A stretch of DNA of 35,061 nt from Candidatus Omnitrophota bacterium. GTDB lineage: Bacteria; Omnitrophota; Gorgyraeia; 2-01-FULL-45-10. A program made the translations under genes and the position numbers. This document shows positions 9,163 to 35,061 of this stretch, piece by piece; position 1 is the stretch's first letter; every line of letters begins with the position of its first letter. The notes under the pieces were generated by a model. It was not told where the DNA came from, made no database searches, and was given only the letters and a program-made list of their open reading frames with translations. The DNA is taken from assembly GCA_016935115.1 (NCBI GenBank), contig JAFGRN010000052.1:1-35061 (forward strand), read 5' to 3'.

Positions 9163-9163
9163 A

Positions 9164-10177: not shown

Positions 10178-10183
10178 TATGAT

Positions 10184-11899: not shown

Positions 11900-11908
11900 A
11901 CCACCTCT

Positions 11909-19259: not shown

Positions 19260-20435
19260 CTATTTCTTAAAACATTCTTTGTATAGAGACTCTATATCAT
19301 TGACCAGCCGTTCTTTTGAATATTTAGCCCTTACCAGCTCCCTGCCGTTCAAGCCGAATTCGGCCCTCTTCTTCCCGTCGGCCAGAAGATCGGCGAGTTT
19401 GCGGGAGAGGTCCTTCGCGTCATCGCTATTTACCAAGAAGCCGTTCTTACCGTGAATCACTATATCCCTTACCCCGCCGACGTCGGTGGCTACCACAGGC
19501 CTTGCGCAAGCAGACGCTTCTATGAGAGATACAGGAGTGCCTTCGTTCAGGGATGTCAATACCACTACGTCCAGATCAGCATAGACAGGCGCGAGATCCT
19601 TTTTCCAGCCGGTAAATATCACCCGTCCGTCCAAGCCCGCGCGCTTCACTTTTTCCTTAAGATCAGCGGCGCATTCACCGTCGCCTATTATCACAAAATT
19701 AACTTTTGCCAGCCTGTCTCTGCCTATAAAATCTGCCGCCGCGTCTATAAACATCCCGTGGTTCTTTATGGGAACGAGCCTGCCGACTATACCCACCAGC
19801 AGCGTGTCCGGACCGACGCCAAGCTCTTTCCTGAATGCCCCTCTCTCCTTTTCGCATGTAAGGAACCTGTCGAGCTCAAAACCGAGGGGTATTACCACGC
19901 ACTTCGACGCTTCCACCACTTTTAATTTATTGACTATCTCATCCCTGATGAGCCCGCTTACCGTCACCACCCTGTCGGTAAAGATAGCGAGAAACTTTTC
20001 TATCATCAGGAAGATGCGCGCTTTCACGGGGTTAAAATAACCGTCAAAGACATGGCCGTGGAAAGTATGCACTTTCACCGGGACGCCCGCGCAGATAGCC
20101 GCCAGGCGGCCGAGTGTACCGGCCTTTGCTGTGTGCGTATGCACAATATCCGGTTTCTCGCGCTTTATTACCGACAATATGGAAAAGAACGCCCTTATAT
20201 CTTTTATCGGCGAGATCTCCCTCGACATGTCTTTTATTATCACGGGCGCTACATTCTTCTCGGCCGCAAGATATGACATATCACCTTCGGAGTCATTCAC
20301 CATGCCGCATACCAGAATATCCCTGTAGCCGCGCCTGTTCAATTCACTCGATAGAAGTACCGTATGTATGGCCGGTCCCCCGACATTGAGACGGGCTATT
20401 ATCCTGACTATCTTTTTTGGGGCCGCTATATCCAT
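19260..20435 (-). CDS. GT4 glycosyltransferase
   Basis: This 391-residue GT-B glycosyltransferase of family GT4 begins with KIVRIIARLNVGGPAIHTV, the acceptor-side motif of this family. It continues with IVHTHTAKAGTLGRLAA, VGRLVPIKNHGMFIDAA and the EX7E-type nucleotide-sugar site LNEGTPVSLIEASACARPVV. These are typical of retaining polysaccharide transferases that use UDP- or GDP-sugars at the cytoplasmic membrane face. The ATG overlaps the upstream fused glycosyltransferase gene by ten bases. I cannot assign its sugar. Confidence 0.88.
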   Translation of the reverse strand: MDIAAPKKIVRIIARLNVGGPAIHTVLLSSELNRRGYRDILVCGMVNDSEGDMSYLAAEKNVAPVIIKDMSREISPIKDIRAFFSILSVIKREKPDIVHTHTAKAGTLGRLAAICAGVPVKVHTFHGHVFDGYFNPVKARIFLMIEKFLAIFTDRVVTVSGLIRDEIVNKLKVVEASKCVVIPLGFELDRFLTCEKERGAFRKELGVGPDTLLVGIVGRLVPIKNHGMFIDAAADFIGRDRLAKVNFVIIGDGECAADLKEKVKRAGLDGRVIFTGWKKDLAPVYADLDVVVLTSLNEGTPVSLIEASACARPVVATDVGGVRDIVIHGKNGFLVNSDDAKDLSRKLADLLADGKKRAEFGLNGRELVRAKYSKERLVNDIESLYKECFKK

Positions 20436-22291
20436 CCCTTAAACCAGTAATATATTATGCCCAGGTACTCATGCATTATACCCCTTATCTGAGTCAAGCT
20501 TATCTTTTTTGTAAATATGCCATTCGTTTTGTGCGCATAGAAAGAACTCTTTGGAATTGGGGTATATGATACATCTATATCTCCACCCATCTTAGCAAAA
20601 ACTTTCGATACACGCAGCATATGGTACGGCGAAGTCAATAAAATGATCTTTTTCCAACCTTTTTTGTCAAGTATTTCCCTGGTAAAAAGAACACTATCAT
20701 GCGTATTAGAAACTCTATTCTCCAGTACTATAGCATTTTCAGGGACACCTAAAGATAGAGCCAAGGCCTTCATAACAAGCGTCTCCTCGAGTATATGGAT
20801 ATATCCAGATGAAAAAATTATGTAGGACGCATACCCTTTCTTATAAAGCTCCACAGCGTATTCAGCCCTTTCCTCATATCCCTGTCCGACTTTTCCGGAC
20901 TCACCGATACCGCCTCCAAGCACTACTATGGCATCCACTTTTTTGGGAGGATCCGATACTATGAGCGGCTGGGCAAGGACCCATACTATGGGTGTATAAA
21001 ACACCAGCAAGTAGAACGCCAAAGCCGCTATCAGGCTCTTCATCATAGTGCGCTTGGTATTTTTATACAACTTAAGGAATTTATCCTGCCATGTCATCGA
21101 CGGCTCTCTTCCCTTCCTTTCGATCGCATCTTCCATAAACGCGCTCATGCGGTCTATGCGGCTGGACCAGCTGTTGTTCCTGGCCACATTCATCCTTCCG
21201 GATCGCGCATCCGCGGTATCGAAAGCAAGCGCTTTCTCCAGGAATTTGATGAACTCTTCATGCGTGCCGGCAATGTAAGTAAAGCTATTGCCCCTGTTCA
21301 TGGCCTCCACTTCCGGCAGTGCCGTGGAAACAACCGGCTTACCCATCATGTGATACTCATTGAGTTTGGTAGGATAAACCGTCATGGTGTATTCGGACAC
21401 CAGATACGGTATCGTGCACACATCGAACCGGTTTATATACGCCGGAAGATCTTCAAATTCCTTCTTCCCGAGCATGAAGATATTACTCAGACCTTCTATC
21501 TCTCCCGTATCCACTTGCTTGGGCCCGACCAGCACTACGGACCACTTCGGATGGCTCGTAGCTATGCGTTTTATAAGTGAAAGGTCAACGTGCTTATGTA
21601 TACCGCCTATATACCCGATTATAGGCCCATGAATACCGCTTATATCTGCCGGAATTTTTTTGGCCGGATTTGAAAGGTAATCATCGAAGACTTTTGTGTT
21701 AACCCCGAAAGGAAATATGTGGACGTTTGGATTGATCTTTAGACACTTATTCGCTATGGCCGGGCCCTGGGCAAAGATAACGTCGCATTTTTTAATCAGC
21801 TTGTTTTCCGTATCTCTCAATCTCTTTGGATTGTCTGTCAGGACGTTAAAATCGGCTATGTTATAATATACCAGCAGCTTTCTGCTGTCAAACTCGTCAA
21901 TTATTTCAAGCGCCATGCTTGTGGGGAGAAATGTCCATATTATTGGATCTCGGAATGATATGGCTTTCATCCAGCGCTTGAGCGGCTCTATCAGAAGCTG
22001 CCTGTTCATACGGCCGGCAATTTTTGAATGCGGAAAGGGCAGTATTACGGGTGAATAGACGAAGAGATTCTTCCTCTCCTCCCTGAAACCCTTGGTGCTC
22101 CTGATCCAGCTGACAATCCTCTTCTTGAGCCTGTGCACATCCCCGAGATTAGGAGACCTGACGCCTATATTCTCAATGAAAAGGACTCTATTGCCGTTCC
22201 TGGCAAAAGTGGACATGATCTCCTGGTGGCCCTGCCACACAAAATCCCAGTCAATACTGGATATGCAGATGATGTCCTGATTTTTCAGCAT
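20426..22291 (-). CDS. Fusion protein: GT4-like glycosyltransferase plus membrane-anchored DUF218 domain
   Basis: This 621-residue protein is a two-domain fusion. Residues 1-395 are a GT-B glycosyltransferase resembling TuaH/GT4 enzymes: FPFGVNTKVF near 193-202, GYIGGIHKHVDL near 226-237 and PTKLNEYHMMGKPVVST near 307-323. Residues 418-441 form one membrane segment. Residues about 450-605 are a DUF218 (SanA/ElyC/YdcF) domain, with VDAIVVLGGG near 452-461, VSNTHDSV near 527-534 and LLTSPYHMLRV at 551-561. DUF218 proteins such as ElyC affect envelope glycan synthesis. In sampled lines, base composition falls to 30-45% G+C in the DUF218 part and recovers to about 55% in part of the glycosyltransferase part. 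The reading frame is open throughout. An assembly error joining two genes is unlikely but not excluded. Confidence 0.85.
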   Translation of the reverse strand: MLKNQDIICISSIDWDFVWQGHQEIMSTFARNGNRVLFIENIGVRSPNLGDVHRLKKRIVSWIRSTKGFREERKNLFVYSPVILPFPHSKIAGRMNRQLLIEPLKRWMKAISFRDPIIWTFLPTSMALEIIDEFDSRKLLVYYNIADFNVLTDNPKRLRDTENKLIKKCDVIFAQGPAIANKCLKINPNVHIFPFGVNTKVFDDYLSNPAKKIPADISGIHGPIIGYIGGIHKHVDLSLIKRIATSHPKWSVVLVGPKQVDTGEIEGLSNIFMLGKKEFEDLPAYINRFDVCTIPYLVSEYTMTVYPTKLNEYHMMGKPVVSTALPEVEAMNRGNSFTYIAGTHEEFIKFLEKALAFDTADARSGRMNVARNNSWSSRIDRMSAFMEDAIERKGREPSMTWQDKFLKLYKNTKRTMMKSLIAALAFYLLVFYTPIVWVLAQPLIVSDPPKKVDAIVVLGGGIGESGKVGQGYEERAEYAVELYKKGYASYIIFSSGYIHILEETLVMKALALSLGVPENAIVLENRVSNTHDSVLFTREILDKKGWKKIILLTSPYHMLRVSKVFAKMGGDIDVSYTPIPKSSFYAHKTNGIFTKKISLTQIRGIMHEYLGIIYYWFKGWI

Positions 22292-23418
22292 AATATTCTT
22301 TCCGCCATATCGCCCACATATTCCGCTATCGCGGGTGAGGCCGTCAGGCCCGGTGATTCAATTCCAATAAGATTTACAAAACCCGGCAGGCCCCTTTCTG
22401 ACTCATCTTTTATAACGAAATCCCTGAACTCTCCGCCCGCTTCCTGCAATTTGGGCCTTATCCCCGAAGTATCCGCAACAATGTCCTCATGCTCAATGAA
22501 TGGCATGATGGCCTTTATCGATCCGCAAAACTTGCCCGCGCGCATACTATCCACCGAATAATCCTTAACACGCTCCTTCATATATTCATCGTCGGGCCCC
22601 AGGCGCAGGCTTCCCGCGAGATCAACTGTCGCATGGATCCCCAGTCCTACCGCTTTCGGCCTGGGTACCGGATAGACCAAGCCGCCGACCATCCTGGACT
22701 TTGCCCCATTTACCCGGAAATACTGCCCCTTGCAATAATGCAGGCGGTATCCATCTTTATCCACATCTATTCCGGCCATACCGGCAACCATGTCGGAGTC
22801 AAGCCCTGCCGAGTTTACCACTACCCGCGCTTCAATCTTTGATACATCATTACCGTTCCTGACACTGATGCTGTAGCCATTTTTAATCTTCTCGATAGCC
22901 ACAGCCTCCGCATCAAACGCAACCATGGCGCCATTATCCCGGGCGGAACGCAGAAGGAACGCCATAAGCTTATGGGAATCGATTATGCCCGTACAGGGCG
23001 AATGAAGCGCGCAGAGGCCTCTCACATTGGGCTCCACCTTCTTGAGCCCAGCAGCGTCGAGCATGGCAAGATCTTCTACACCATTGGCACACCCAAGGGC
23101 ATATAGCCCCTCCAGGGCGCTCCTTTCCATTTCATCTACGGCAACTATAACTTTACCGGTCCACCTATGGGGTATCCGGTACTTTTCGCACAACTCGCGC
23201 AGCAGCCTCCTGCCCCTGACACAAAGACGGGCCTTAAGCGTTCCTGCAGGATAATACATCCCTCCATGTATTACTTCGCTGTTGCGCGAACTGGTCTCCC
23301 GGCCGAAAGAATTGTTCCTTTCCAGAATGATGACTCTTCTATTATCTTTTGCAACTTCTTTTCCCACGGCGAGCCCTACCACTCCCGCGCCGATAATCAG
23401 TATATCAACTTCTTCCAC
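22285..23418 (-). CDS. lhgO: FAD-dependent oxidoreductase, L-2-hydroxyglutarate oxidase (LhgO)-like
   Basis: This 377-residue flavoprotein of the DAO superfamily most resembles LhgO (YgaF), which oxidises L-2-hydroxyglutarate to 2-oxoglutarate and passes electrons to the membrane quinone pool. The FAD motif GAGVVGLAVG is at 10-19. SRNSEVIHGGMYYPAGTLKARLC near 43-66 is characteristic of the family. VVNSAGLDSD near the middle is the second FAD-binding block and NLIGIESPGLTASPAIAEYVG the C-terminal signature. It sits within a glycan-synthesis array between a methyltransferase and a fused glycosyltransferase, so it may act on a hydroxyacid or sugar acid in that pathway. Its stop overlaps the next start by seven bases. 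The LhgO call rests on motifs, and substrate use here is uncertain. Confidence 0.78.
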   Translation of the reverse strand: MEEVDILIIGAGVVGLAVGKEVAKDNRRVIILERNNSFGRETSSRNSEVIHGGMYYPAGTLKARLCVRGRRLLRELCEKYRIPHRWTGKVIVAVDEMERSALEGLYALGCANGVEDLAMLDAAGLKKVEPNVRGLCALHSPCTGIIDSHKLMAFLLRSARDNGAMVAFDAEAVAIEKIKNGYSISVRNGNDVSKIEARVVVNSAGLDSDMVAGMAGIDVDKDGYRLHYCKGQYFRVNGAKSRMVGGLVYPVPRPKAVGLGIHATVDLAGSLRLGPDDEYMKERVKDYSVDSMRAGKFCGSIKAIMPFIEHEDIVADTSGIRPKLQEAGGEFRDFVIKDESERGLPGFVNLIGIESPGLTASPAIAEYVGDMAERILC

Positions 23419-24321: not shown

Positions 24322-25263
24322 CTAAAAACCGAGGATATATCTTTCCCTAAAGCGAAGGATTGCCCGGATTACAGCATTGGGAAGTAATGTTGAGAGGTAT
24401 ATAAGTGTAAATTTATAGTCAAGCCATTCACATTTTCTAAGAATATCCCTTGCCTCGCGGGGCCTCCCCTGTCCCAGCTCCATCTTTGCCTTTAGAAAGG
24501 ATATCTTTGAGTTAATATGAGCAAGGCCGCGACTGTACTTTATCTCAAAATCGGGATCCATCTTCTTGAATTTTTCAACAACATAACTGAGCTCTTCTGT
24601 ATAATTGGGTTTAAACATGAATTTCACGGTACCTGATTCGGGATGTATGCGGTATATTGCCAGAGGTTCATCCACATAAGCCGCTTTCGATCTGTACAGC
24701 AATCTCATGAAGAGATCATATTGCTCCCACAGATACAGCTTTTCATCAAACATCGATCCTAAAGAGCAGATATCCTCTCTTCTTACAATGGCTGTAAGAA
24801 GGCCTATGGGATAAGCATATAAGAATTGCTCAAAGACATCGCCCTCGGGCTGGGCGGTTTTAAATGTCAATTTCTTGCGTTTGCCCGGGTAGAGTCTGAA
24901 ATAGTTGCTGTAGATGAGGCTGGCTTCTTTTCTTTCGGCAAGGAGTTTCACCTGCTTCTCCAATTTTGTCGGCAACCATATATCGTCGCAATCGAGAAAC
25001 GCTATAAACCTGCCGCGGGATTTCTCTATCGCCCAGTTCCTTGCCTGACCAAGCTGGACGGTCCTGTCGCTTCTGAAATACCTGATTTTTCCATCATAGC
25101 TTCCGGCGATTCTGGCACTATCATCGGTGGACGCATTATCCCAGAATATTATCTCCCAATCCCTGTAAGTTTGGCTATAAACGCTGTCTATGGCCTCTCT
25201 GAGATACCGGCCGCTGTTGAAGCAGTTCATTATGACACTTACCGAAGGGGCCGGTTCTGTCAT
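24322..25263 (-). CDS. GT2 glycosyltransferase
   Basis: This 313-residue GT2 enzyme has VSVIMNCFNSGRYLREAIDS at the start of the domain, the strand EIIFWDNASTDDSA, LGQARNWAIEKSRG and the metal-binding triad in FLDCDDIWLP. The SLIYSNYF segment is also typical. The C-terminal part near RIHPESGTVKFMFKPNYTEELSYV and the late segment YLSTLLPNAVIRAILRF may bind the membrane. I chose the ATG at 25263 because it forms an ATGA overlap with the RmlC-like gene; the alternative ATG at 25278 would add five residues. It ends 72 bases before the next gene. The acceptor is unknown, and the neighbouring CDP-sugar genes suggest a deoxysugar donor. Confidence 0.85.
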   Translation of the reverse strand: MTEPAPSVSVIMNCFNSGRYLREAIDSVYSQTYRDWEIIFWDNASTDDSARIAGSYDGKIRYFRSDRTVQLGQARNWAIEKSRGRFIAFLDCDDIWLPTKLEKQVKLLAERKEASLIYSNYFRLYPGKRKKLTFKTAQPEGDVFEQFLYAYPIGLLTAIVRREDICSLGSMFDEKLYLWEQYDLFMRLLYRSKAAYVDEPLAIYRIHPESGTVKFMFKPNYTEELSYVVEKFKKMDPDFEIKYSRGLAHINSKISFLKAKMELGQGRPREARDILRKCEWLDYKFTLIYLSTLLPNAVIRAILRFRERYILGF

Positions 25264-25706
25264 TCTTCTTTTCTCCATACATAGGGAATGCTTTTATCAA
25301 AAATATCTTTGCTGGCGGTTTCGTTCAAGTCGTGTGGCATGTCCGTACAGTTGGCCACCATAGCGGAGGATCCGCCAACAGCCCTGAAGGAGTACCATAC
25401 TTGCGGCGGTATTTGCAGAAGACAATAGTTATCCTGGCCGATCACCACTTCCTGGACTTCACCGCCGGTGGAGCATCCTTTACGGTCATCGTATATCACG
25501 ACTTTAACGTTTCCGGACGGAACAGCGAAGTTCTGCGTCATCTTCAGATGCTTCTTCCATCCTTTTATGGCGCCGGGGTTTATTGTGGAAAAGTATATCT
25601 CCCCGAAATTTCTGAAGTACAAACTATCCGAACGCAGCATATGCATGACTTTGCCGCGCGAATCCGAAAATACCTTGAGAGGTTCTATCAGGACTCCTTC
25701 TATCAT
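25260..25706 (-). CDS. dTDP-4-dehydrorhamnose 3,5-epimerase (RmlC)-like cupin
   Basis: This 148-residue cupin resembles the RmlC/WxcM family, which epimerises or isomerises 4-keto-6-deoxy nucleotide sugars. SDSRGKVMHMLRSD, the block INPGAIKGWKKHLKMTQNF and the C-terminal QIPPQVWYSFRAVGG are the barrel segments. The histidine in GWKKHLK sits where RmlC has its catalytic base. The length is shorter than classical RmlC (about 180 residues) and fits the single-cupin branch. It is five bases downstream of CDP-glucose 4,6-dehydratase, whose product is a 4-keto-6-deoxy sugar, so its substrate is probably CDP-linked. Confidence 0.75.
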   Translation of the reverse strand: MIEGVLIEPLKVFSDSRGKVMHMLRSDSLYFRNFGEIYFSTINPGAIKGWKKHLKMTQNFAVPSGNVKVVIYDDRKGCSTGGEVQEVVIGQDNYCLLQIPPQVWYSFRAVGGSSAMVANCTDMPHDLNETASKDIFDKSIPYVWRKEE

Positions 25707-25711
25707 AAAGA

Positions 25712-26818
25712 TCAGCTCCTTTTCGCCCAGCTTGCGCGGTTGTCGATCGCTTTTTTGATATATTGCTCTATCTGCGACCGCGAAAAATCGGACATATCCG
25801 CATAGCCGCCATAGTAGGCCTTATACCAATCGGCTGTCATGTCTATACTCTCCTCGAAATTCAGCACAGCCGACCATCCCAGGCGCTCAAGCGCCTTATC
25901 ACAACATAGGCGCAGGAGTTTTGACTCTTTTTTTCCATCGTTTAACGGCTTATATTTCCAACTTCCGCCTCCCCAGTGACGAATAAAAAGCTTCAGGACT
26001 TCTCTTACGGATTTCACGATCTCCGAATTTGGGCCGAAGTTAAAGGCCTCCCCGCTGATCTTCCCGCGGCCGCGGAGCAGATGTTCACCCAAAAGCAGAT
26101 AACCGCCCAGTGGTTCAAGCACATGCTGCCATGGCCGGGTTGCGTCGGGATTTCTCACTATCATCTTCTTTCCCGCGCTGAAAGCCCTGACACAATCGGG
26201 AATTACCCTGTCCTTGGCCCAGTCGCCGCCGCCTATCACATTACCGGCGCGCGCGGTAGCTATCCTTATGGAATCCCCGCCGGTAAAAAATGCCTTCATA
26301 TAAGTCCTTGTCGCAAGTTCAGCGCAGGCTTTCGAGGAGCTGTAAGGATCTTCCCCACCGAGTACATCGTCCTCCCTGTAGCCCCTCTCTAATTCGAAGT
26401 TCTGATAACACTTATCGCTGGTAACTATAACAGCCGCCTTTACCGAACCGGAAGAACGCAGGCATTCAAGCAGGTTGACTGTTCCGCCCATATTGGTGTG
26501 GAAAGTTTCCAGAGGCACATCATACGAATATCTGGCCAGAGACTGCGCGGCGAGATGAAATATAATGTCCGGTGAGAAATCACGTATCGCTTTCCTCAAT
26601 GACCCGATATCCCCTATGTCGCCATTAACATGCTTTATTCTATCCTTTAACCCAAGTATCTCAAAATTAGACGGACTCGTTGGCACATCTATCGAGTAGC
26701 CTGCCACCTTTGCCCCAAGTTTAAGAAGCCACAGGCAGAGCCAGGATCCTTTGAATCCAGTATGGCCCGTAACCATAACCCGTCTATTTTTATATACACC
26801 GCCGAAAATTTCTTTCAT
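25712..26818 (-). CDS. rfbG: CDP-glucose 4,6-dehydratase
   Basis: This 368-residue SDR enzyme converts CDP-glucose to CDP-4-keto-6-deoxyglucose, the entry to CDP-deoxysugars. It has NAD-binding GHTGFKGS at 18-25 and the family-specific VTSDKCYQNFE near 132-142. GYREDDVLGGEDPYSSSK spans about 146-163, with catalytic Tyr159 and Lys163. ARAGNVIGGGDWAKDRVIPD completes a near-canonical RfbG pattern. The usual partners RfbF (cytidylyltransferase) and RfbH (3-dehydrase) are not in the window. The gene sits between an NAD-dependent reductase (26839-27771) and the RmlC-like epimerase, which together can finish a 6-deoxysugar. Confidence 0.95.
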   Translation of the reverse strand: MKEIFGGVYKNRRVMVTGHTGFKGSWLCLWLLKLGAKVAGYSIDVPTSPSNFEILGLKDRIKHVNGDIGDIGSLRKAIRDFSPDIIFHLAAQSLARYSYDVPLETFHTNMGGTVNLLECLRSSGSVKAAVIVTSDKCYQNFELERGYREDDVLGGEDPYSSSKACAELATRTYMKAFFTGGDSIRIATARAGNVIGGGDWAKDRVIPDCVRAFSAGKKMIVRNPDATRPWQHVLEPLGGYLLLGEHLLRGRGKISGEAFNFGPNSEIVKSVREVLKLFIRHWGGGSWKYKPLNDGKKESKLLRLCCDKALERLGWSAVLNFEESIDMTADWYKAYYGGYADMSDFSRSQIEQYIKKAIDNRASWAKRS

Positions 26819-26838
26819 TCAATACTCCCCTTTCCACA

Positions 26839-27771
26839 TCATTTTCTAATCTTACTGTAATAATCAATGGTCGCTTTCAATCCTTCTTCGAGAGTGACTC
26901 TCGGCCTCCACCCCAATATCGAACCCGCAAGAGATATGTCGGCGTATAGTTTCATGTTCTCGCCATTTTTATATGGGTATGCCCCCCAGAGCGGCATTCC
27001 GCCGCCGGCGATCCTGATCACCTTCTTAACCATATCCCTTATCAATACGGGCTTCCCGGAAGCTACGTTTATTATATGGCCGCGCGCTTTTACGGATACC
27101 GCGGCCATTACCATCGCCTCAACAACATCATCGATATAACAAAAATCTCTTGCCTGGATACCTTCGGACGTTTTAAACTTTTCATTGTTCAGGCACGCCT
27201 TTATTATCTGCGGCAGAAACCTCCTGTCGTCCTGGCCCGGACCATAAACGAGGAAGAAACGCAGAACAACACCGGGGAATTTTTCTATCCTCGAGAGCAT
27301 CGTTACGAAATACGTAGCCGCGGCCTTTGAAAAAGAATATGGCGAGATGGGTGACTCGCGTATTGATTCCTCCTGCGGCGCGGGAGCATCACCGTATTCA
27401 TCGCTGCTGCCTACCTGGACAAATCCCTTCAATGCGCTTCTATCAAGGCAGCTCACTATATTCATCAGGCCCGCAAGGTGCGTATCTATCACGGCCCTGC
27501 CGCCGTCAAAATAAGGCCTATGATCGATATATCCGCTCAGGTTGAAAACATAATTGAATCTCTTCCCGGATAGAGCCTTGCTCACATCTTCAGCTGACCG
27601 TATATCGACTCGCAATAATTTCACGCCTTTCAAATCACATCTGTCATTGGGCGCGCCCAGACAGGTAACATTCGGCGTCAGCTTCAGGCACCTCTCGGCC
27701 AGGCGCCTGCCGATAAATCCGGATCCTCCGGCTATCAGGATCGTATCCTTTGCAGTAATCTTATTTTTCAT
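26839..27771 (-). CDS. NAD-dependent epimerase/reductase (SDR), likely CDP-deoxysugar step
   Basis: The start at 27771 forms an ATGA overlap with the HAD gene; an ATG at 27831 would add 20 residues that look unrelated to the family. The 310-residue SDR has NAD-binding GGSGFIG at 15-21, VGSSDEYGDAP near 120-130, catalytic YSFSK at 145-149 and VYGPGQDDRRFLPQII. It resembles CDP-paratose/abequose synthase-type reductases and 2-epimerases. Position beside RfbG makes a role in reducing or epimerising the CDP-4-keto-6-deoxysugar likely, but the reaction is not fixed by sequence. Confidence 0.8.
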   Translation of the reverse strand: MKNKITAKDTILIAGGSGFIGRRLAERCLKLTPNVTCLGAPNDRCDLKGVKLLRVDIRSAEDVSKALSGKRFNYVFNLSGYIDHRPYFDGGRAVIDTHLAGLMNIVSCLDRSALKGFVQVGSSDEYGDAPAPQEESIRESPISPYSFSKAAATYFVTMLSRIEKFPGVVLRFFLVYGPGQDDRRFLPQIIKACLNNEKFKTSEGIQARDFCYIDDVVEAMVMAAVSVKARGHIINVASGKPVLIRDMVKKVIRIAGGGMPLWGAYPYKNGENMKLYADISLAGSILGWRPRVTLEEGLKATIDYYSKIRK

Positions 27772-28418
27772 TGTCGGCCTATCTTCTCCAGCACGCCCTG
27801 CAAGCCGGAGAGGTCTCTTATCTTCACGCAATCGATATCCCTGAATATATCCTCGTTCTTATTGATCCTCGCGATGAAATGGCTGCGATTCGCCACAGCC
27901 GCTTCATAGTCGCTCATAGCGTCGCCGACGTAGGCTGAAGAGGAGGGATCCGTACCCTCCTCCGACAGCGCTTTCTTCACTATGTCGGTCTTTTTGGAAG
28001 GCGCCCCGTAAATCTTCTTGAAATACCGGGCGATGCCTTTTCTGCGCGCTATCTCCTCTATCTCCTCCTGCGGAGTCGCCGATACTACACAGCAGAGGTA
28101 TCTCGACGCGTGGTTCTCCAGAAATTCCTTCGCGCCCTTTACAAATGGCGCACCGACTACTTCGTCCATAACGAGGCCGGCAAACCTGCCGCAAAGGCTG
28201 TGAAACTCTTCTTCTCCGAGAGGCCGTTTCAGGATGTCCCTGTATATCAGCCTGAACTTGTCGAACCGCGAGACGCCGGCGTTCTTCAGATGATAATCCA
28301 CTATCCGCCCGACGGCATCCTTACCCTCTGCCTTGAATAACCTGGCAAAAGCGGCCGTCTTTATATCAACCGATTCCACGATGACTCCGTCAAAATCGAA
28401 GAATATCGTCTTGATCAT
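27768..28418 (-). CDS. HAD-IA phosphatase (phosphoglycolate phosphatase-like)
   Basis: This 216-residue HAD hydrolase starts with the motif FFDFDGVIVES (nucleophile Asp and general-acid Asp near residues 8 and 10). It continues with VVSATPQEEIEEIA (motif II), GAPSKKTDIVKKAL (motif III lysine) and VGDAMSDYEAA (motif IV). An alpha-helical cap lies near 15-85. It likely removes phosphate from a small sugar phosphate or nucleotide. The ATG at 28418 overlaps the upstream stop by one base (TAATG). Within the sugar cassette its substrate is probably an early sugar phosphate. The exact compound is unknown. Confidence 0.82.
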   Translation of the reverse strand: MIKTIFFDFDGVIVESVDIKTAAFARLFKAEGKDAVGRIVDYHLKNAGVSRFDKFRLIYRDILKRPLGEEEFHSLCGRFAGLVMDEVVGAPFVKGAKEFLENHASRYLCCVVSATPQEEIEEIARRKGIARYFKKIYGAPSKKTDIVKKALSEEGTDPSSSAYVGDAMSDYEAAVANRSHFIARINKNEDIFRDIDCVKIRDLSGLQGVLEKIGRQ

Positions 28419-29947
28419 TATAAATCGAATGCCTCCTCTATACCGGCCTGCGTGACTTCCCGGAAGAATATCTTTCTGTACCTGTCCGCGACAGCGATGA
28501 GACTCTCCGCGTCATTTTCCATAGCCCTCTTGAACTTCTCCACATGGCGCGCCAGCTCATCCGCGCCGAAGGCTTCGTCCCATATTATACCTCTCCCGTA
28601 TTCGATAAGGGGATTATCATAATCGAACCTCTTCCCGTTCTTGATAGAGATGGCGGCGATGCCAAGGCTCGCGGCCTCTATCAACGTGCCGCTGGCTGCG
28701 CTTATCACGATCTTTGCGCTTTCGAAGAGCTTGTACGTATCGTCCCCTGTTATGACCATGTCCGGAGGAATAATACTCCTGATCTTCTCCAGGGGCGTGC
28801 CCGGGTGCAGTTTCACAAATACATTGTCGTGGGGCAGTTTCGACCCCAGAAAAGTCCTGATTATATTCTCCGCCGTGGCCTCGACATACGGCAGGAGTAT
28901 CAGGATATTCTTCTGGTTCTCCCTTCTGATGATCGTATTGAATACCCTGGCGTAACGAAGAGACGGCCCGACCCGGTAATCGAACTTGCTCCTCTCCGGC
29001 ATGTAATATTCCCCGTTGGCTATTATCCTGTCGGGAATTACGCCGAAACTCTCTTCATTTACATCTGGTATTATCGGGATATAGTTTTTGGAATGGAGAA
29101 AGAGCTGGGCTCCGTAGATCCTGACCTTCGACGGATCGCTCCTCATGCCCCTGTACAGGTTTTTGTGAACAGGCTGATTCTCGTACCAGCTTATCACCTT
29201 GATGCGCCTGTACGGCAACCCGGATATCCTCCTTCCCTGAAGGTAACGTGAAAAGCTGTGGAACGTAACCTGGTCGATCGTATCGATCAGTTCATATCTG
29301 AGTAGCTTTTTCTCGTGGCTGTCAGGAATTATCTTTTTCAGTAACGATGCGACATGCAACGGATAGGTTACTATGAAACATGCCATGCGCAGGAGGTCGC
29401 CGATCGTAAGAAGCTGATATTCGGCCAGGACCGGCACCATGTCCCTTTTTAATATCTTCATGACGCCGCATGATTCCGGCAGTCTCTTTGCGTACGGTGA
29501 ACTATAGAAGAACGGCAGATACGCGTAGTGCCGGGCCTTCTTCTTCAGAAGATCTTCCAGGCCGGGAAACAGCCACTCTTCAAATTTTTCCGCCTTCCTT
29601 ATCCTGTCCATCACAAAATAGGTATCTATCAGGACCAGCTCGTCGGAATCCCGGGAAATTTTAAATTTATTCATAAATAAGTGATGCTCGACGAAGGTTA
29701 TCATATAGGCCGCGAAGTGCACGGCGCTCTTGAGATAATACATCAGGATCTTCAGCGCGACCTGAAAGACTGAATGCGGCCCGGGGTCATTACCATTCAG
29801 GTAATTGTGCAGAAAATCGTTATTGTAAGCCGTCTTGCTCAGTACCGGATTTGACATGAGGAATATGTCCTTAAAAGCCTCCCCATTCACCGATGAGACG
29901 GTATCGTAAGCGTTCCTTATCTTCTCTTCCATATCGATCCGGTTCAT
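28418..29947 (-). CDS. Putative GT-B surface-carbohydrate transferase
   Basis: This 509-residue protein is not a confident member of any family I recognise. The N-terminal half is alpha-helical with several amphipathic or hydrophobic segments. The middle contains KVISWYENQPVHKNLYRGMR and RIYGAQLFLHSKNYIP. The C-terminal 150 residues look like a GT-B nucleotide lobe: VFVKLHPGTPLEKI, TGDDTYKLFESAKIVISAASGTLIEAASLGIAAIS and NPLIEYGRG. The HPG and late Ser/Glu blocks recall CDP-glycerol glycerophosphotransferase-like and capsule enzymes. The ATG at 29947 forms an ATGA overlap with the cyclase-family gene; the ATG at 29980 would add 11 residues. A glycan-building role is inferred from fold and neighbours. 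Confidence 0.6.
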   Translation of the reverse strand: MNRIDMEEKIRNAYDTVSSVNGEAFKDIFLMSNPVLSKTAYNNDFLHNYLNGNDPGPHSVFQVALKILMYYLKSAVHFAAYMITFVEHHLFMNKFKISRDSDELVLIDTYFVMDRIRKAEKFEEWLFPGLEDLLKKKARHYAYLPFFYSSPYAKRLPESCGVMKILKRDMVPVLAEYQLLTIGDLLRMACFIVTYPLHVASLLKKIIPDSHEKKLLRYELIDTIDQVTFHSFSRYLQGRRISGLPYRRIKVISWYENQPVHKNLYRGMRSDPSKVRIYGAQLFLHSKNYIPIIPDVNEESFGVIPDRIIANGEYYMPERSKFDYRVGPSLRYARVFNTIIRRENQKNILILLPYVEATAENIIRTFLGSKLPHDNVFVKLHPGTPLEKIRSIIPPDMVITGDDTYKLFESAKIVISAASGTLIEAASLGIAAISIKNGKRFDYDNPLIEYGRGIIWDEAFGADELARHVEKFKRAMENDAESLIAVADRYRKIFFREVTQAGIEEAFDL

Positions 29948-30630
29948 ATCCGTTCGCGGACTTCTCCTATGATCGTGCACGGGGCGCTGTCGACGCCATC
30001 TATGAAGACGGGCGCGATAATGAGTTTTCTTACCGCCTTCACTTCGCGTGGAATATTGATATCCTCCACTATGAGAATAGCGGATCTCTCAGGTCCGGAT
30101 TCCTTAAGCAATGTCCTGTGCGTCAATTTTCCGGCCGCCCTGTCCGAAAAAGACCCTATGGATATGCAGTCTATGCCTATGGCTCTCAGGCCCGGAATCT
30201 CGCTTCTGATCCATTTCGCGGCGTCCGGCGAAAGGTACGGGTTCTTATAACGGTAAAGCCGCGCATTCTTCTCTCTGTGCCTCATGAAGCCCGTCCTGAT
30301 CAGCAGTATGTCGAAATCACGCGACCTTATCGAACGCGATATATCGACGGCCTCTATCGCCTCTCCGGGGCCTTTACGGCAATCTATCAGGCAGGGCCTG
30401 TCAAAAACCAGTTCATCGGGTGAAAATTCATTTATGCTCCTGCCGGAATTCCAGAAATGTTTCGGCGCGTCTACATGCGTCCCTATGTGGTTCGAGAAGG
30501 CCAGTGAAAATGTATTGCATGAGTCCCCCCTTTTTATCGACTTTCCGGATCTTATTACGACGGGAACATCGCCCGGATAGACCGGCGTCCTCTTCGAAAT
30601 ATCGTATGAAAGCCTCTTATACATTGTCAT
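29944..30630 (-). CDS. Metal-dependent cyclase-family hydrolase (kynurenine formamidase-like)
   Basis: This 228-residue enzyme is of the cyclase superfamily (PF04199 type), which includes kynurenine formamidase and other metal-dependent hydrolases of amide or lactone bonds. The metal motif HIGTHVDAPKHFW is at 48-60, with His48, His52, Asp54 and His58 as ligands. DILLIRTGFMRHR near 86-98, a glycine-rich GLRAIGIDCISIGS segment and VEDINIPREV complete the pattern. In a sugar cassette it might hydrolyse an N-formyl or lactone intermediate, but this is speculation. It overlaps both neighbours as ATGA. Confidence 0.85.
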   Translation of the reverse strand: MTMYKRLSYDISKRTPVYPGDVPVVIRSGKSIKRGDSCNTFSLAFSNHIGTHVDAPKHFWNSGRSINEFSPDELVFDRPCLIDCRKGPGEAIEAVDISRSIRSRDFDILLIRTGFMRHREKNARLYRYKNPYLSPDAAKWIRSEIPGLRAIGIDCISIGSFSDRAAGKLTHRTLLKESGPERSAILIVEDINIPREVKAVRKLIIAPVFIDGVDSAPCTIIGEVRERI

Positions 30631-31568
30631 CTGGACTTTGACGATGAGCTCCTGACGGCTCTCTTACGGTTCGTTACCATCGCATCCCCGATGGCCTGGG
30701 AGCTGAAGACCCTGTGAATGCTCCGGATCGACTCAAGTATCCCCTGGCTCAGGTCGAGATACGTCCTGCTGACGATCCTCTTTGCCATCTTCGGCGCGAA
30801 GCAGTAAGGCGTTATCTCGTAATGGAGATTGGCCCTGGGCTCCACATACTCCACCTTCACCTTGTTGTCGAGCATCTCCTTCACCATGCCGAGCAGGTCT
30901 TTGACTTTCATCTGCTGGCTTCCGGTGATTATCACATACTCATTTATGAAGTCATCCGACAATATCTCAACGCTGCACCTGGCTGCGTCGCATACGTGGA
31001 TATACTCCCTTATCTCCTCTCCGTCGCCTTCGCGCACGATCCTGCCTTCTTTGACCGCCTGCGTCAGCACCCTGTGGATAAAATTCTTCTCGTCAGCCCT
31101 GGGCCCATAGAGGGATCCGTACCGCAGTATGGTATATTTCAGGCCAAAGACCTCGCTGTAGTTCTCCACCAGGAGTTCGCACGCCTGTTTGGTGCTCCTG
31201 TAGAATGACCCCGCTTTACTGTAGACGTACAGCGAGCTCGCGAAGACGAACCTCCTGACCTTCGATTTACGGCACGCCTCCAGTATGATGGAATTGCCGA
31301 GTATATTGGACTTTATGCAATCCAATGGCCTGGCGTTGGCCTCCTCTATGTCGGCCACTCCCGCAAAATTGTACGCTACATCGCAGCCCTTTACCGCCCG
31401 CAATACCAGCTTCTCATCCATTATGTCGCCTATCACCATGCTCTGGGCCTTCTGCAGGTGCTTCGACGGTACCAGATCAAATATCGTGACATTGTGCCCG
31501 GCGGCGGTCAGGGCATCGGCCACGTGACTGCCGAGAAATCCGGAGCCTCCGAAAACGATCACTTTCAT
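30627..31568 (-). CDS. NAD-dependent epimerase/dehydratase (SDR)
   Basis: This 313-residue extended SDR has the NAD-binding GGSGFLG at 7-13, ASSLYVYSK near 110-118 and catalytic YRSTK at 123-127. LRYGSLYGPRAD and EGDGEEIREYIHVCDAA also fit. The family includes UDP-hexose 4-epimerases and nucleotide-sugar dehydratases. The last 20 residues (RKRAVRSSSSKSR) are strongly basic and serine-rich, an uncommon tail. It overlaps the dehydrogenase upstream and the cyclase downstream as ATGA, so these three proteins are probably made together. I cannot name the sugar. Confidence 0.82.
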   Translation of the reverse strand: MKVIVFGGSGFLGSHVADALTAAGHNVTIFDLVPSKHLQKAQSMVIGDIMDEKLVLRAVKGCDVAYNFAGVADIEEANARPLDCIKSNILGNSIILEACRKSKVRRFVFASSLYVYSKAGSFYRSTKQACELLVENYSEVFGLKYTILRYGSLYGPRADEKNFIHRVLTQAVKEGRIVREGDGEEIREYIHVCDAARCSVEILSDDFINEYVIITGSQQMKVKDLLGMVKEMLDNKVKVEYVEPRANLHYEITPYCFAPKMAKRIVSRTYLDLSQGILESIRSIHRVFSSQAIGDAMVTNRKRAVRSSSSKSR

Positions 31569-32491
31569 TTTGTATCCTCCAATCCTTTCAATAGATTTTT
31601 TGCCGCTTCCATCTCCATCCCGGCCCTTGCCTCTCTGGCATAAGAGCCGATGTGCGGCGTAAGTATGACGTTTTCCATTCCTTTCAATTCGCCCTCATAG
31701 GGCTCCTTTTCAAAGACATCCAGGGCGGCGCCCGATAATCTGCCGTCCTTCAGGGCCCCGCAGAGGGCTTTCTCGTCGAGCGCTTCCCCGCGCGAGACAT
31801 TAACGATCAGCGCGCCCTTCTTCATCTTCTTTATCTCGTTTTCTCCCATGATATATCCTCCGCCGCTATTGGATACGTGCAGCAGGACAATGTCACTCGC
31901 CTTAAGCAGTTCGTCCAGCCCGAGTTTTTTTACATCCGGGTTTTTCACGCGAGAAGCGGAATCATCGATATCGTAATATCCGAGCTTGCAATTAAATGGC
32001 TTTAACAGTTCCGCCGCCTTCCTGCCTATACGGCCGAAACCTATTATACCCACCGATTTGCCCGAGAGCAGGCTGCCCATCCTCTTCTTCCATCTTCCCG
32101 AGCGGATCTCCCTGTCCATCTGTGAGATCCTGCGCAGGAGATCCAGGATCATGCCTATCGTGAGTTCCGCCACCGCAATCGTCGGCGCGTCGGGAGTATT
32201 AAAAACTTTTACCCCAAGGCTCTTAGCGGCCTTCAGGTCCACGTTATCCATGCCGACACCGCATCGCGAAATAACCTTAAGATTGCGCATCTTCGAAAGG
32301 TTGTCGCTCCCGAGGGGCTCCGTACCGGCGATTAAGCCTTCCGCATCCGACGCCAGTTTCACTATCTCATCCTTCACCAGGCTCCTGCCGTAGGGATTGA
32401 AACCCGTTTCAAAACCGGCGTCCCGGAGCAGTTTTATGGGCGCCTGGTCAAATTCGCCGAAAGACGATGTCGAGATGAATATCTTTTTCAT
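31565..32491 (-). CDS. D-2-hydroxyacid dehydrogenase (PGDH/SerA-like)
   Basis: This 308-residue enzyme is a D-isomer-specific 2-hydroxyacid dehydrogenase of the 3-phosphoglycerate dehydrogenase branch. It has the NAD motif GFGRIG at 151-156 and the catalytic arginine in NVSRGEALDE near 234. The glutamate lies in DVFEKEP near 261-263 and the histidine in LTPHIGS at 280. There is no C-terminal ACT or regulatory domain, unlike many SerA proteins, so serine feedback is unlikely. Its place between a radical SAM enzyme and an SDR epimerase suggests it oxidises a sugar-derived hydroxyacid in this cassette, rather than serving general serine synthesis. Confidence 0.85.
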   Translation of the reverse strand: MKKIFISTSSFGEFDQAPIKLLRDAGFETGFNPYGRSLVKDEIVKLASDAEGLIAGTEPLGSDNLSKMRNLKVISRCGVGMDNVDLKAAKSLGVKVFNTPDAPTIAVAELTIGMILDLLRRISQMDREIRSGRWKKRMGSLLSGKSVGIIGFGRIGRKAAELLKPFNCKLGYYDIDDSASRVKNPDVKKLGLDELLKASDIVLLHVSNSGGGYIMGENEIKKMKKGALIVNVSRGEALDEKALCGALKDGRLSGAALDVFEKEPYEGELKGMENVILTPHIGSYAREARAGMEMEAAKNLLKGLEDTK

Positions 32492-32499
32492 GATCTCTC

Positions 32500-33993
32500 C
32501 TAAAAATATTTCTTCTGGTATTCTTCGCTCAATTCCCTGAATATCTTATCACTGCCGGGAGCGCCGGATTCGATCTTCTCTATGTCATCCCAGCGTTCCT
32601 TCGGAAACCTCACATACAGGCAGAATGTCTTCAGTATGCGGTTTAAATGCTCTCTGGATAAGTTTTTATTTCTTATGACGCTATTATGCAGGAGCGTCGC
32701 GCCGCCGACGGACCTGTCTATGAGGCCCTTCTCCTCGCAGAGCTCGTACAGCCTCGTGCCCGTATACGGATAGAATATGAAGACGCTGACGCTGTCCGAT
32801 CTTATCTTCCTATTAAGCTCTATCGTATCGAATATCAATTCCCGCGTCTCGCACGGAAATCCTATGATATTGTTTACGCTGAGAGGCAGTCCCGCTTCAT
32901 TAATAATGTCACAGGCTTCCAGGAACTGTTTATTGGAAAACCTCTTCCCTACGATATTCCTCCTGAAATCCTCATTGCCATGCTCGAGGCCCACAGTTAT
33001 CCGGTCGCATCCGCACTCTTTCAACAGCCCGATCCTGCGCTTATCTATCGTCTCCGCCCGGGTCTGGCACCAGAAAGGCAACCCTATCTTATTCTTTATA
33101 TTCAGAAGCAATGTATCGAACACATCGTCTTTTAAAGTAAAAAAAGTATCGCTGTTGAAATATAAGAATTCGAGATCGTGCCTCTTTACAAGCTCAGATG
33201 CTTCCTCTACTATCCTATCAACGCTCTTCTTCCTGAAATAGCTCTGGTTGTTCTGCTTCCTGTACCACTCCCTGTAAGCCGGCGAGGCGCAAAAACTGCA
33301 GTCATAAGGACATCCTCTGTCGAAATCCAGGGGCAGCATCCTGCGCATCCTTCCCTGCATGGGACTGTAGAACCTTTTCTCCTCGAACAGCGAATAATCC
33401 GGAACCGGAAGTTTATCCAGATCTATCAGCGGCCTCAGGCCGTTCGAAATAATCCTGTCGCCTCGACGGAGACACAGGTTTTTAACATCCGCGTAATCCT
33501 TCTTCTCCTTGAGCCGTCCGCACAACTCGACGATGGCCTCTTCCCCCTCGCCCAGGCATATGATATCTATCTCCCTATGCCTGAAGGCTTTCTCTTTGAG
33601 ATAGGATATGTATATGCCCCCGAAGATCGTCACGGGCCTGTCATCGCCCAACGCCTTTATCAGCCTCAGGGCGAGGGGCATCGTATCCTCCACCACCGAT
33701 ACGCCTATCAGGTTCGGCCTGAAATCCCTGACTTTCTTCCTGAAGTCATCGGCCACATCGGTGTTTTTTACCGTGATCCCGTAATCACGGGCATCATAAG
33801 ATCTTACCTGAAGATACTCTTTCCGCGTTTCGTCCGGATTCTCTGTATCGGTCGAATAGTACGTAGTATCGAACAGTCCCACCTCGAAACCACGGCCCCT
33901 CAGGCATGCTGTGAGTATCCCTATGGCCGGCGGCAGGAGGTTCTTCATCATCAGGTTGGGATAGACGAGCAGTACTCTCAATTTGTTCGACAT
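32500..33993 (-). CDS. B12-binding-type radical SAM enzyme
   Basis: This 497-residue enzyme begins with a cobalamin-binding-like domain (LRVLLVYPNLMMKNLLPP, then GVSVVEDTMPLALRLI and TIFGGIYIS). A radical SAM domain follows, with the cluster cysteines 228, 232 and 235 in DRGCPYDCSFC. YFNSDTFFT and TVGLEHGNEDFRRNIVG are radical SAM lobe features. As in the enzyme at 6309-7691 the DxHxxG cobalamin ligand is not seen. B12-type radical SAM proteins in glycan clusters often methylate or rearrange carbons, but this target is unknown. It starts three bases after the FkbM gene and ends eight bases before the dehydrogenase. Confidence 0.83.
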   Translation of the reverse strand: MSNKLRVLLVYPNLMMKNLLPPAIGILTACLRGRGFEVGLFDTTYYSTDTENPDETRKEYLQVRSYDARDYGITVKNTDVADDFRKKVRDFRPNLIGVSVVEDTMPLALRLIKALGDDRPVTIFGGIYISYLKEKAFRHREIDIICLGEGEEAIVELCGRLKEKKDYADVKNLCLRRGDRIISNGLRPLIDLDKLPVPDYSLFEEKRFYSPMQGRMRRMLPLDFDRGCPYDCSFCASPAYREWYRKQNNQSYFRKKSVDRIVEEASELVKRHDLEFLYFNSDTFFTLKDDVFDTLLLNIKNKIGLPFWCQTRAETIDKRRIGLLKECGCDRITVGLEHGNEDFRRNIVGKRFSNKQFLEACDIINEAGLPLSVNNIIGFPCETRELIFDTIELNRKIRSDSVSVFIFYPYTGTRLYELCEEKGLIDRSVGGATLLHNSVIRNKNLSREHLNRILKTFCLYVRFPKERWDDIEKIESGAPGSDKIFRELSEEYQKKYF

Positions 33994-33996
33994 GGC

Positions 33997-34890
33997 CTAT
34001 CTCTTGAATATGTAATTGTGCATAGCCGCATACGGGCCGTCATTGCCGCCGTATGTATATCTGTGCCTGGAATGTACGATGAACCCATTCCTGGACATGA
34101 GACCGATTATCCTGTCCGCCTCGGCGCTGCCTTCTTCCAACTCCGCTATCACGCTTCTCAGCGCGGCGCTCTTAAGCGCCCCGCTTGCGCCCTCAAGCAC
34201 TTTATATTCGATCCCGTCGACATCTATCTTAATATGATTCGGCGCGGGTATCCCGAATTGCTTTATGAGGTCGTCTATCCTGTAAGATAGGACCGGCTGC
34301 CGGAAGACAGGAGCAAATGTCTCCCCTTTGCAATCCAGAGGCTTGCCGAAAGCGTGGAGGGCTCCGCCGGGCGTAAGGTTATTGTAATTGAACGTATCCA
34401 TAACCGTCTTGTCCGAAAGAGCTACCTGCAGGGGAATTATGCTGTCCTGGCATTCGTTCGTTATTATATTCCTGCAGAGCTCCACAAATGTCATGAAGCC
34501 CGGCTCAAACGCGTAGACCCTGACCCTGCCGTTGAAATACTTTGACGCAACCAGGGAGTAGGCTCCCACATTGGCGCCCACATCGTATAGCACGTCGCCC
34601 TCTTTCATGAAATCCTGGATCCAGGTTATCATCTCGGGCTCTTTCGCGCAGGAATGGAGCCTGACCCTGTATTCGATATCCGAATTTATATTCAGGAATA
34701 TATCACGCTCTTTGTAATCCATCTTCTTCACTATCTCGGCATTCGATTTTATGGCCAGGAGAAAGCCCGAAGGCATCGCATTGATCAGCGATACCATCGC
34801 CTTCCTGAAGATATCGCCCGTCCCGCGCCTCACGGCGCGCAGGAACATTATCTGTCTTTCCGTAAGCAGGTTTTTCAGCATCTTCTTCAT
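33997..34890 (-). CDS. FkbM-family SAM-dependent methyltransferase
   Basis: This 297-residue enzyme is of the FkbM methyltransferase family, whose members often O-methylate sugars or polyketides. The SAM-binding block DVGANVGAYSLVAS is at 103-116, FEP at 128-130, and the characteristic IKIDVDGIEYKVLEGA near 219-234. The first 60 residues are an extra, helical N-terminal region. Its ATG overlaps the SGNH hydrolase stop as ATGA. In this array it could methylate a sugar hydroxyl of the surface glycan. The exact position is unknown. Confidence 0.88.
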   Translation of the reverse strand: MKKMLKNLLTERQIMFLRAVRRGTGDIFRKAMVSLINAMPSGFLLAIKSNAEIVKKMDYKERDIFLNINSDIEYRVRLHSCAKEPEMITWIQDFMKEGDVLYDVGANVGAYSLVASKYFNGRVRVYAFEPGFMTFVELCRNIITNECQDSIIPLQVALSDKTVMDTFNYNNLTPGGALHAFGKPLDCKGETFAPVFRQPVLSYRIDDLIKQFGIPAPNHIKIDVDGIEYKVLEGASGALKSAALRSVIAELEEGSAEADRIIGLMSRNGFIVHSRHRYTYGGNDGPYAAMHNYIFKR

Positions 34891-35061
34891 TTGTTAAACA
34901 CCGCCTTCAGGACAGAGTTATATATGAGCCTATGCCCGTGCCCGGTATAGTGCACACCGTCGGAAGAGAAAGCGTTGGGATCGCGGATCGAGTCGCCCAG
35001 CGGCCTGACATAATCGATATTGCGGCCGGCCTTCTGTACTCCCGCAAGAAACCTGTTAGAC
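34887..35061 (-). CDS. C-terminal end of an SGNH/GDSL-type hydrolase (partial)
   Basis: The frame runs in from beyond the right edge and ends at a TGA at 34887-34889, overlapping the FkbM start as ATGA. The visible 57-58 residues end the protein with SSDGVHYTGHGHRLIYNSVL and KAVFNK. The DGVHYTGHG segment matches block V of SGNH/GDSL hydrolases, whose conserved Asp and His complete the catalytic triad. Such enzymes in glycan loci often act as acetylesterases or acyl transferases, so it could add or remove an O-acyl group. The N-terminal Ser/Gly blocks lie outside the window and cannot be checked. Confidence 0.7.
   Translation of the reverse strand, partial: SNRFLAGVQKAGRNIDYVRPLGDSIRDPNAFSSDGVHYTGHGHRLIYNSVLKAVFNK

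Follow-up and report, generated by a model that had tools for sequence, protein, structure and literature searches.

The right end of a 35,061-nucleotide stretch of a Candidatus Omnitrophota genome (GenBank assembly GCA_016935115.1, contig JAFGRN010000052.1), hereafter called the window, is occupied by a cassette of genes for enzymes of sugar-acid type, for which an earlier note, made from the letters alone, had proposed, as the product, an acidic or N-acylated sugar with subsequent methylation and acyl modification. The eight frames that it listed (27768 to 35061) could be confirmed; they all lie on the minus strand and, read leftwards from position 35061, encode an SGNH-like fragment, an FkbM methyltransferase, a B12-binding radical SAM enzyme, a phosphoglycerate dehydrogenase (PGDH)-like enzyme, a short-chain dehydrogenase/reductase (SDR), a cyclase-family hydrolase, a protein of the glycosyltransferase B (GT-B) fold, and a HAD phosphatase (Table 1). 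Four-base overlaps occur at four of the seven junctions, and not at five as had been counted, namely, SGNH/FkbM, PGDH/SDR, SDR/cyclase, and cyclase/GT-B, the last only if the GT-B gene starts at the ATG at 29947. The GT-B and HAD genes overlap by 1 base, and gaps of 3 and 8 bases separate the radical SAM gene from the FkbM and PGDH genes, respectively. Since the window is the entire contig C1 of a fragmented genome (1.395 Mb in 79 contigs, 81.9% complete), its right end cuts the operon.

Continuation of the operon and its gene products

The sequence to the right of position 35061, which the earlier note had wished to see, was found at the start of another contig of the same genome. In particular, the KdsB-like cytidylyltransferase of a relative (the G158 copy), used as the query, pointed with a 61% match to the very beginning of contig C47, which, read leftwards on its minus strand, carries the genes of an ABC (ATP-binding cassette) transporter, an HpcH/HpaI aldolase, the KdsB-like enzyme, and a methyltransferase, followed by a frame cut by the contig end. 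An intact frame of 281 residues in genome G033 (L119, 13125 to 13967) matches this front half at 48% over 163 residues and the tail in the window at 47% over 55 residues. Because a single G033 frame matches both, we conclude that the end of the window and the start of C47 are two halves of one gene, with about 27 residues missing between them according to the G033 comparison. A shared assembly overlap joining the two contigs was rejected, as comparison of their ends showed none, and what joins them is the order of the genes together with the split gene. Only the C-terminal piece of the eighth gene of the cassette belongs to the window. In G033, a single contig carries on one strand, in this order, the genes for ABC, HpcH, KdsB-like, methyltransferase, hexapeptide transferase, SGNH-like, radical SAM, PGDH, SDR, cyclase, and HAD proteins, with a TIGR04326-like protein after HAD, and the same gene set occurs in G094 and G158. 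A 280-residue protein adjoining PGDH in these last two genomes was considered as a relative of the eighth gene and rejected for lack of any similarity; its own relative at L039 resembles a distant methyltransferase, under the Pfam cut-offs.

Table 1. Positions of the operon genes in the window and on contig C47
Feature	Contig	Coordinates	Strand	Size and status	Evidence
HpcH/HpaI aldolase	C47	2317-3072	minus		Family search of C47 proteins
KdsB-like cytidylyltransferase	C47	1520-2320	minus		61% to G158 copy
Methyltransferase	C47	543-1523	minus		
SGNH-like protein (eighth gene), front half	C47	1-528	minus	Frame cut by contig end	
SGNH-like protein, C-terminal part	Window	34887-35061	minus	57 residues, cut by contig end	Motif DGVHYTGHGH only
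FkbM-family methyltransferase	Window	33997-34890	minus	297 residues, local addition	PF05050 53.9, TIGR01444 89.2 bits, over cut-off
B12-binding radical SAM enzyme	Window	32500-33993	minus	497 residues, frequent member	PF02310 53.4, PF04055 87.5 bits
PGDH-like D-2-hydroxyacid dehydrogenase, no regulatory domain	Window	31565-32491	minus	308 residues, core member	PF02826 179, PF00389 92.4 bits
Extended SDR	Window	30627-31568	minus	313 residues, core member	PF01370 145.3 bits
Cyclase-family metal hydrolase	Window	29944-30630	minus	228 residues, optional member	PF04199 92.2 bits (cut-off 23.1)
GT-B-fold protein, probable glycosyltransferase	Window	28418-29980	minus	520 residues; likely true start ATG 29947	AlphaFold model
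HAD phosphatase	Window	27768-28418	minus	216 residues, core member	PF13419 59.5 bits (cut-off 23.8), PF00702 over cut-off

The family labels given in the earlier note agree with the Pfam matches for the HAD, cyclase, SDR, PGDH-like (without an extra domain), B12-radical SAM, and FkbM proteins, but the SGNH label is supported by its motif only, and the intact relative of this protein has no Pfam or NCBIfam match and a structure model with a pLDDT (predicted local distance difference test) of 35. The PGDH-like family presents both Pfam domains of the D-2-hydroxyacid dehydrogenases, the signature AGtE, EPYxGxL, and HiGSYAxExRxxME (67 aligned sequences), and conserved R234, E263, and H280, which we take to be the Arg-Glu-His triad of these enzymes; it scores below the equivalog cut-off of SerA, the 3-phosphoglycerate dehydrogenase (TIGR01327, 224 versus 454 bits). 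In the SDR, the GGSGFLG, YRSTK, and C-terminal HYxITPYxFxPK motifs are conserved (79 aligned). The Asp nucleophile motif DFDGV and the GDA..D motif of the HAD protein are intact and conserved in 62 aligned sequences, the window included, and its nearest relatives, in a weak match only, are the capped beta-phosphoglucomutase types, compared with the C0 capless phosphatase of the KdsC type. The cyclase shows the HxGTHxDxPxHF motif, of which HxGTHxDxPxH is presumably the metal motif of PF04199 proteins, together with conserved H171 and E189 (34 aligned); its relatives in the PDB are kynurenine formamidases, and it falls below the KynB equivalog cut-off (TIGR03035, 63.9 versus 223 bits). The radical SAM enzyme has the cluster motif CPYDCSFC.

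The GT-B protein had rightly been called poorly assigned, since it has no Pfam or NCBIfam match; its AlphaFold model (pLDDT 88) predicts a two-domain GT-B fold across residues 111 to 520. Fold searches with this model returned generic GT-B matches that pointed to no donor, with Z falling from 15.1 at rank 1 to 12.8 at rank 50; among the matches listed, the nearest of interest is 8qoy, a multienzyme of capsule synthesis (Foldseek rank 40). An HP pair at residues 392 and 393 is invariant in the alignment columns of its relatives. The window protein does not match TIGR04326 (surface carbohydrate protein), and longer proteins at some related loci match this family below the cut-off. In G158 (contig C8; L022:1061-2587), a single in-frame TGA divides the GT-B gene into two open parts, as expected of either a broken gene or an assembly error.

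Conservation of the unit across genomes

A search of 84,980 species genomes, with the alignment of the SDR as the query, yielded 281 relatives. The locus counts refer to the best 80 of these, presence being judged by score thresholds chosen for this analysis; as several of the 80 loci are short contigs, these counts are lower bounds. The relatives come from Omnitrophota, Nitrospirota, Thermodesulfobacteriota, Nitrosomonas, Bacteroidota, Chloroflexota, and others, and the archaeal carriers are Methanoperedens, Methanolobus, and Thermoplasmata. Two loci (L090 and L091) carry identical SDRs, and four others (L035, L037, L069, and L081) are apparently the same contigs as the sources of the query alignment in G094, G158, G180, and G159. 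PGDH was present at 65 of the 80 loci, HAD at 60, cyclase at 32, radical SAM at 27, HpcH and KdsB-like at 26 each, and GT-B at 14; wherever a partner occurs, the copy nearest to the SDR is always on the strand of the SDR. The conserved core thus consists of the PGDH-like enzyme, the SDR, and the HAD phosphatase, and is often accompanied by the cyclase, the B12-radical SAM enzyme, and the GT-B protein. The same association is seen among 285 phylum genomes, a set that contains the window's own. The SDR occurs in 32 of them, PGDH in 47, and both in 26 (Fisher P = 1e-18), and 22 of the 32 SDR genes have a PGDH gene within 5 kb. All 10 phylum genomes with a strong cyclase match have the SDR, at a distance of 684 bases or less.

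The two genes nearest to the window's right end behave differently from this core: FkbM (at least 45 bits) was found at 6 of the 80 loci, and the SGNH-like front half matched 2 of the 285 phylum genomes, that is, the window's own and G033, so that we regard both as local additions. The supposition that the eight genes form one unit is thus not supported, the cyclase too being optional; the scattering in relatives that the earlier note named as evidence against its cassette applies to FkbM and SGNH but not to PGDH, SDR, and HAD. The earlier reading, in which FkbM would methylate and the SGNH protein would acyl-modify an acidic or N-acylated sugar, agrees with the presence of both genes in the operon, to which G033 adds a hexapeptide transferase. 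However, both genes fall outside the conserved pathway by the frequencies just given, and the core set is without an N-acyltransferase, which makes this product very improbable.

The two enzymes found on C47 follow each other closely. HpcH and KdsB-like genes occur together at 23 of the 80 loci, one alone at 6, and neither at 51 (P = 8e-14). Of 6 independent pairs on the SDR tree, a mean of 5.2 show a joint change of the two genes and 0.0 a change in opposite directions. Among 49 PGDH genes, 24 have a KdsB-like gene within 5 kb and 13 directly adjoin one; for these counts, the KdsB list consisted of the top 40 rows plus G188 and G121, both selected from lower down for the PGDH gene on their contigs, a choice that biases towards adjacency. 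The simplest form of the unit is found on a plasmid of Acuticoccus sp. I52.16.1 (NZ_CP094833; L114:8469-12921), where five consecutive genes encode an aldolase/citrate lyase, an acylneuraminate cytidylyltransferase (PseF-like, not KdsB-like), a phosphoglycerate dehydrogenase, a HAD hydrolase, and an SDR. The row nearest to the window SDR on the tree is a Nitrospirota sequence, which suggests horizontal transfer. Among phage records, the SDR retrieved only two unannotated Listeria phage entries (29% identity), and among plasmids, the cyclase retrieved only generic relatives with less than 31% identity; no amidohydrolase of family PF04909 was found in the window's own genome.

Other loci show variants of this arrangement. 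At L056, L057, L077, L059, L038, L047, and L101, a PseF-like cytidylyltransferase and a MoaA-like radical SAM protein stand beside PGDH and SDR together with either a HisC-like or a FabG-like enzyme, an alternation that looks like a ketone being aminated or reduced. The PseF-like and KdsB-like genes are anticorrelated (P = 3e-4), both being present at 4 of the 80 loci. A PseI-like cluster (c22) was noticed at 11 of 90 labeled loci, a total in which four contigs appear twice, and in no case did it directly adjoin PGDH, SDR, or HAD. At L023:4543-6297 and L020:6804-8609, where PGDH and SDR are missing, KdsB-like, HAD, and GT-B genes accompany a protein of about 590 residues with a front part like 4-hydroxy-2-oxovalerate aldolase and a weakly MptE-like tail; this arrangement perhaps represents a different aldolase route.

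Aldolase, second KdsB, and the proposed pathway

The C47 aldolase belongs to the HpcH/HpaI family (PF03328, 127.6 bits versus a cut-off of 25) and is closest to the entries for HpaI, GarL, RhmA, and hydroxyketoacid aldolase, with 124 to 167 bits to solved members. Nevertheless, it remains under every equivalog cut-off (206.9 versus 368.8 bits for HpaI, 181 versus 406.75 for GarL, and 169.8 versus 441 for RhmA). Its residues H43, R68, E146, and D172, to which we attribute catalytic roles, are conserved in 26 aligned sequences. The second KdsB family retains the motifs on the side of CTP (cytidine triphosphate), but where canonical KdsB has HxGxY it shows KQxCxxP, found by pattern in 21 of 26 sequences and by eye in one more, with HxGxY in none of the 26. 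This stretch presumably contacts the sugar. The C-terminal domain of KdsB binds 3-deoxy-D-manno-octulosonic acid (Kdo), as reported in PMC3149649. Canonical kdsA and kdsB lie side by side on contig C34 of the same genome (KdsA 394 bits versus a cut-off of 314), so that ordinary Kdo can be made without the second KdsB.

On these grounds we propose, with moderate confidence, that the operon makes, activates, and transfers an ulosonic acid, a 2-keto sugar acid like Kdo or sialic acid, linked to CMP (cytidine monophosphate) for a surface polysaccharide, the cassette in the window being its downstream half. The combination of a CMP-sugar synthetase (of KdsB or PseF type), a phosphatase, and an aldolase follows the logic of ulosonic acid synthesis, with the aldolase in place of the synthase dependent on phosphoenolpyruvate (PEP). 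We infer fairly firmly that the aldolase would build the carbon chain of the 2-keto acid, replacing the PEP-dependent KdsA or NeuB, that the HAD enzyme would strip a phosphate, that the KdsB-like enzyme would join the acid to CMP, and that the GT-B protein would transfer the CMP-linked acid, this donor being only predicted. With less assurance, PGDH and SDR might make or shape one of the aldolase substrates, and the cyclase, if present, might open a lactone or an amide. One coherent version would have PGDH and HAD provide a hydroxypyruvate donor, which might lead to a 3-hydroxylated and not a 3-deoxy acid; we put it forward only because it places PGDH, HAD, and the aldolase in one sequence. 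For the B12-radical SAM enzyme and the methyltransferases, the probable role is an optional methylation. The earlier idea of a conserved route to an acidic sugar is thus retained, but since a class II pyruvate aldolase of HpcH type and a KdsB-like CMP-sugar synthetase lie on C47, a CMP-activated ulosonic acid appears to be a better description of the product than a generic N-acylated sugar.

Several observations weigh against this proposal. PGDH, SDR, and HAD, with or without the cyclase, often occur without the aldolase, and among 21 searched genomes lacking a local HpcH and either cytidylyltransferase, a set to which the genome of L050 does not belong, an HpcH match at E ≤ 1e-10 was detected elsewhere in 4 (3 of them strong, with 55 to 62% identity). 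The PseF-like cytidylyltransferase is present at 36 of the 80 loci, usually with other enzymes; the tree sign test for HpcH and KdsB is borderline (median P of 0.0625); and there is no CMP-sugar transferase among the 50 matches listed in either fold-search listing for the GT-B protein. Finally, the second KdsB passes the kdsB equivalog TIGR00466 (171.2 versus 155.2 bits) as well as PRK13368 (316 versus 255), and by the former rule it would be named a Kdo enzyme.

The first of these points could indicate that PGDH, SDR, HAD, and cyclase are a self-contained module whose product is an unusual sugar or a small unit of hydroxy- or keto-acid type, with the aldolase and KdsB as a separate pathway that travels along in surface-glycan loci. 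Magnetominusculus and other Nitrospirota indeed carry the four genes alone, among unrelated and mostly oppositely oriented genes, 17 of the 21 searched genomes have no HpcH match at the threshold given above, and the module also pairs with the PseF-like, MoaA-like, HisC-like, or FabG-like enzymes. On the other hand, the direct adjacency of KdsB-like and PGDH genes, the Acuticoccus unit, which holds both halves with no other gene between, and the joint changes of HpcH and KdsB on the SDR tree argue for one pathway, and we consider the separate module rather unlikely, though deserving of attention. The TIGR00466 score, in turn, would suit an operon that is only a duplicated route to ordinary Kdo or a known nonulosonic acid. 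Here the canonical pair on C34, the HxGxY motif altered throughout the second KdsB family, the occurrence of the unit in archaea, and the separate cytidylyltransferases and PseI-like synthases on C47 all speak to the contrary, leaving such a duplication improbable.

Returning to the CMP-linked ulosonic acid, it is possible to hypothesize, as a tentative generalization that may well prove too broad, a widespread bacterial and archaeal nucleotide-sugar pathway in which an HpcH-type aldolase forms the acid, perhaps from a hydroxypyruvate donor supplied by the PGDH-like and HAD enzymes, a re-specialized KdsB or a PseF-type enzyme attaches CMP, and a B12-radical SAM enzyme optionally adds a C-methyl group. 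If the unit does pair a CMP-sugar synthetase with a pyruvate-type aldolase in one route, an unidentified acidic surface sugar would be predicted in Omnitrophota, Nitrospirota, sulfate reducers, Nitrosomonas, and methane-cycling archaea. Since cultured strains carry the unit, among them Nitratidesulfovibrio oxamicus NCIMB 9442, Nitrosomonas sp. JL21, and Daejeonella sp. H1SJ63, direct testing is feasible, and the compact form on the Acuticoccus plasmid would be convenient for this purpose.

Surrounding locus and comparison with known systems

The cassette is embedded in a glycan locus. It adjoins a CDP (cytidine diphosphate)-6-deoxyhexose module (25260 to 27783) made of a CDP-glucose 4,6-dehydratase (464 bits, cut-off 278), an RmlC-like epimerase, and an SDR; near the cassette at other loci, RfbG was seen at 14 of the 80, RmlC at 12, and glucose-1-phosphate cytidylyltransferase at 17. 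Further into the window lie a flavin adenine dinucleotide (FAD) oxidoreductase nearest to L-2-hydroxyglutarate oxidase (22285 to 23418; 240.9 bits, cut-off 299), a fusion of a TuaH-like glycosyltransferase domain with DUF218 (20426 to 22291) that has relatives in G083 (1038 bits) and G033 (687 bits), and, amid a glycosyltransferase cluster, a NodU-type carbamoyltransferase (10184 to 11899). On C47 of the same genome (L032 of G000, 8254 to 12631), His_biosynth and glutamine amidotransferase genes lie near a CTP_transf_3 gene and a CBS-domain nucleoside triphosphate (NTP) transferase, and judging from their families they would belong to a separate acidic or amidino sugar pathway.

We class the unit as an uncharacterized nucleotide-sugar pathway of the CMP-ulosonate type. 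The earlier remark that the gene set was not recognized as a described pathway still stands, as we found no functional study of the cassette in the literature searched, from which subscription journals and preprints were mostly absent. One annotated parallel is a capsule block of Campylobacter coli 76339 (BN865_07090 to BN865_07150), annotated in order as 2-dehydro-3-deoxyglucarate aldolase, D-3-phosphoglycerate dehydrogenase, NAD-dependent epimerase/dehydratase, cyclase superfamily, hypothetical, HAD hydrolase, and sialyltransferase (PMC3928612). The listed gene order parallels that of our operon, as compared by annotation and not by sequence, and the sialyltransferase annotation is an independent hint of a CMP-activated acid product; the block appears in the available portion of that source as a table of annotations, without discussion of its function (PMC3928612).

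The C47 aldolase shares the fold family and the conserved catalytic residues of the class II HpcH/HpaI aldolases (HpaI, GarL, RhmA, and hydroxyketoacid aldolase) but differs from them in its scores below the equivalog cut-offs and in its place in a biosynthetic surface-sugar operon. With the nonulosonic acid pathways (NeuB/PseI/LegI with NeuA/PseF), the unit has in common a CMP-activated acidic sugar and, at the loci counted above, a PseF-like enzyme; different from them, the conserved unit lacks a NeuB-family synthase. Similarly to the KdsA-KdsC-KdsB route to CMP-Kdo, a phosphatase and a KdsB-type cytidylyltransferase would activate a 2-keto sugar acid for transfer to a surface glycan. However, the unit has an HpcH-type aldolase instead of the PEP-dependent KdsA, adds PGDH, SDR, and cyclase, uses a HAD phosphatase that may be of C1 type (weakly nearest to the beta-phosphoglucomutase types) and a KdsB with a changed motif, and coexists with canonical kdsA and kdsB elsewhere in the genome. 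To our knowledge, the CMP-activated ulosonic acids (Kdo and sialic, pseudaminic, and legionaminic acids) are all made with PEP-dependent synthases; if our proposal is true, a CMP-sugar synthetase combined with a pyruvate-type aldolase would represent a second chemical route to CMP-ulosonic acids.

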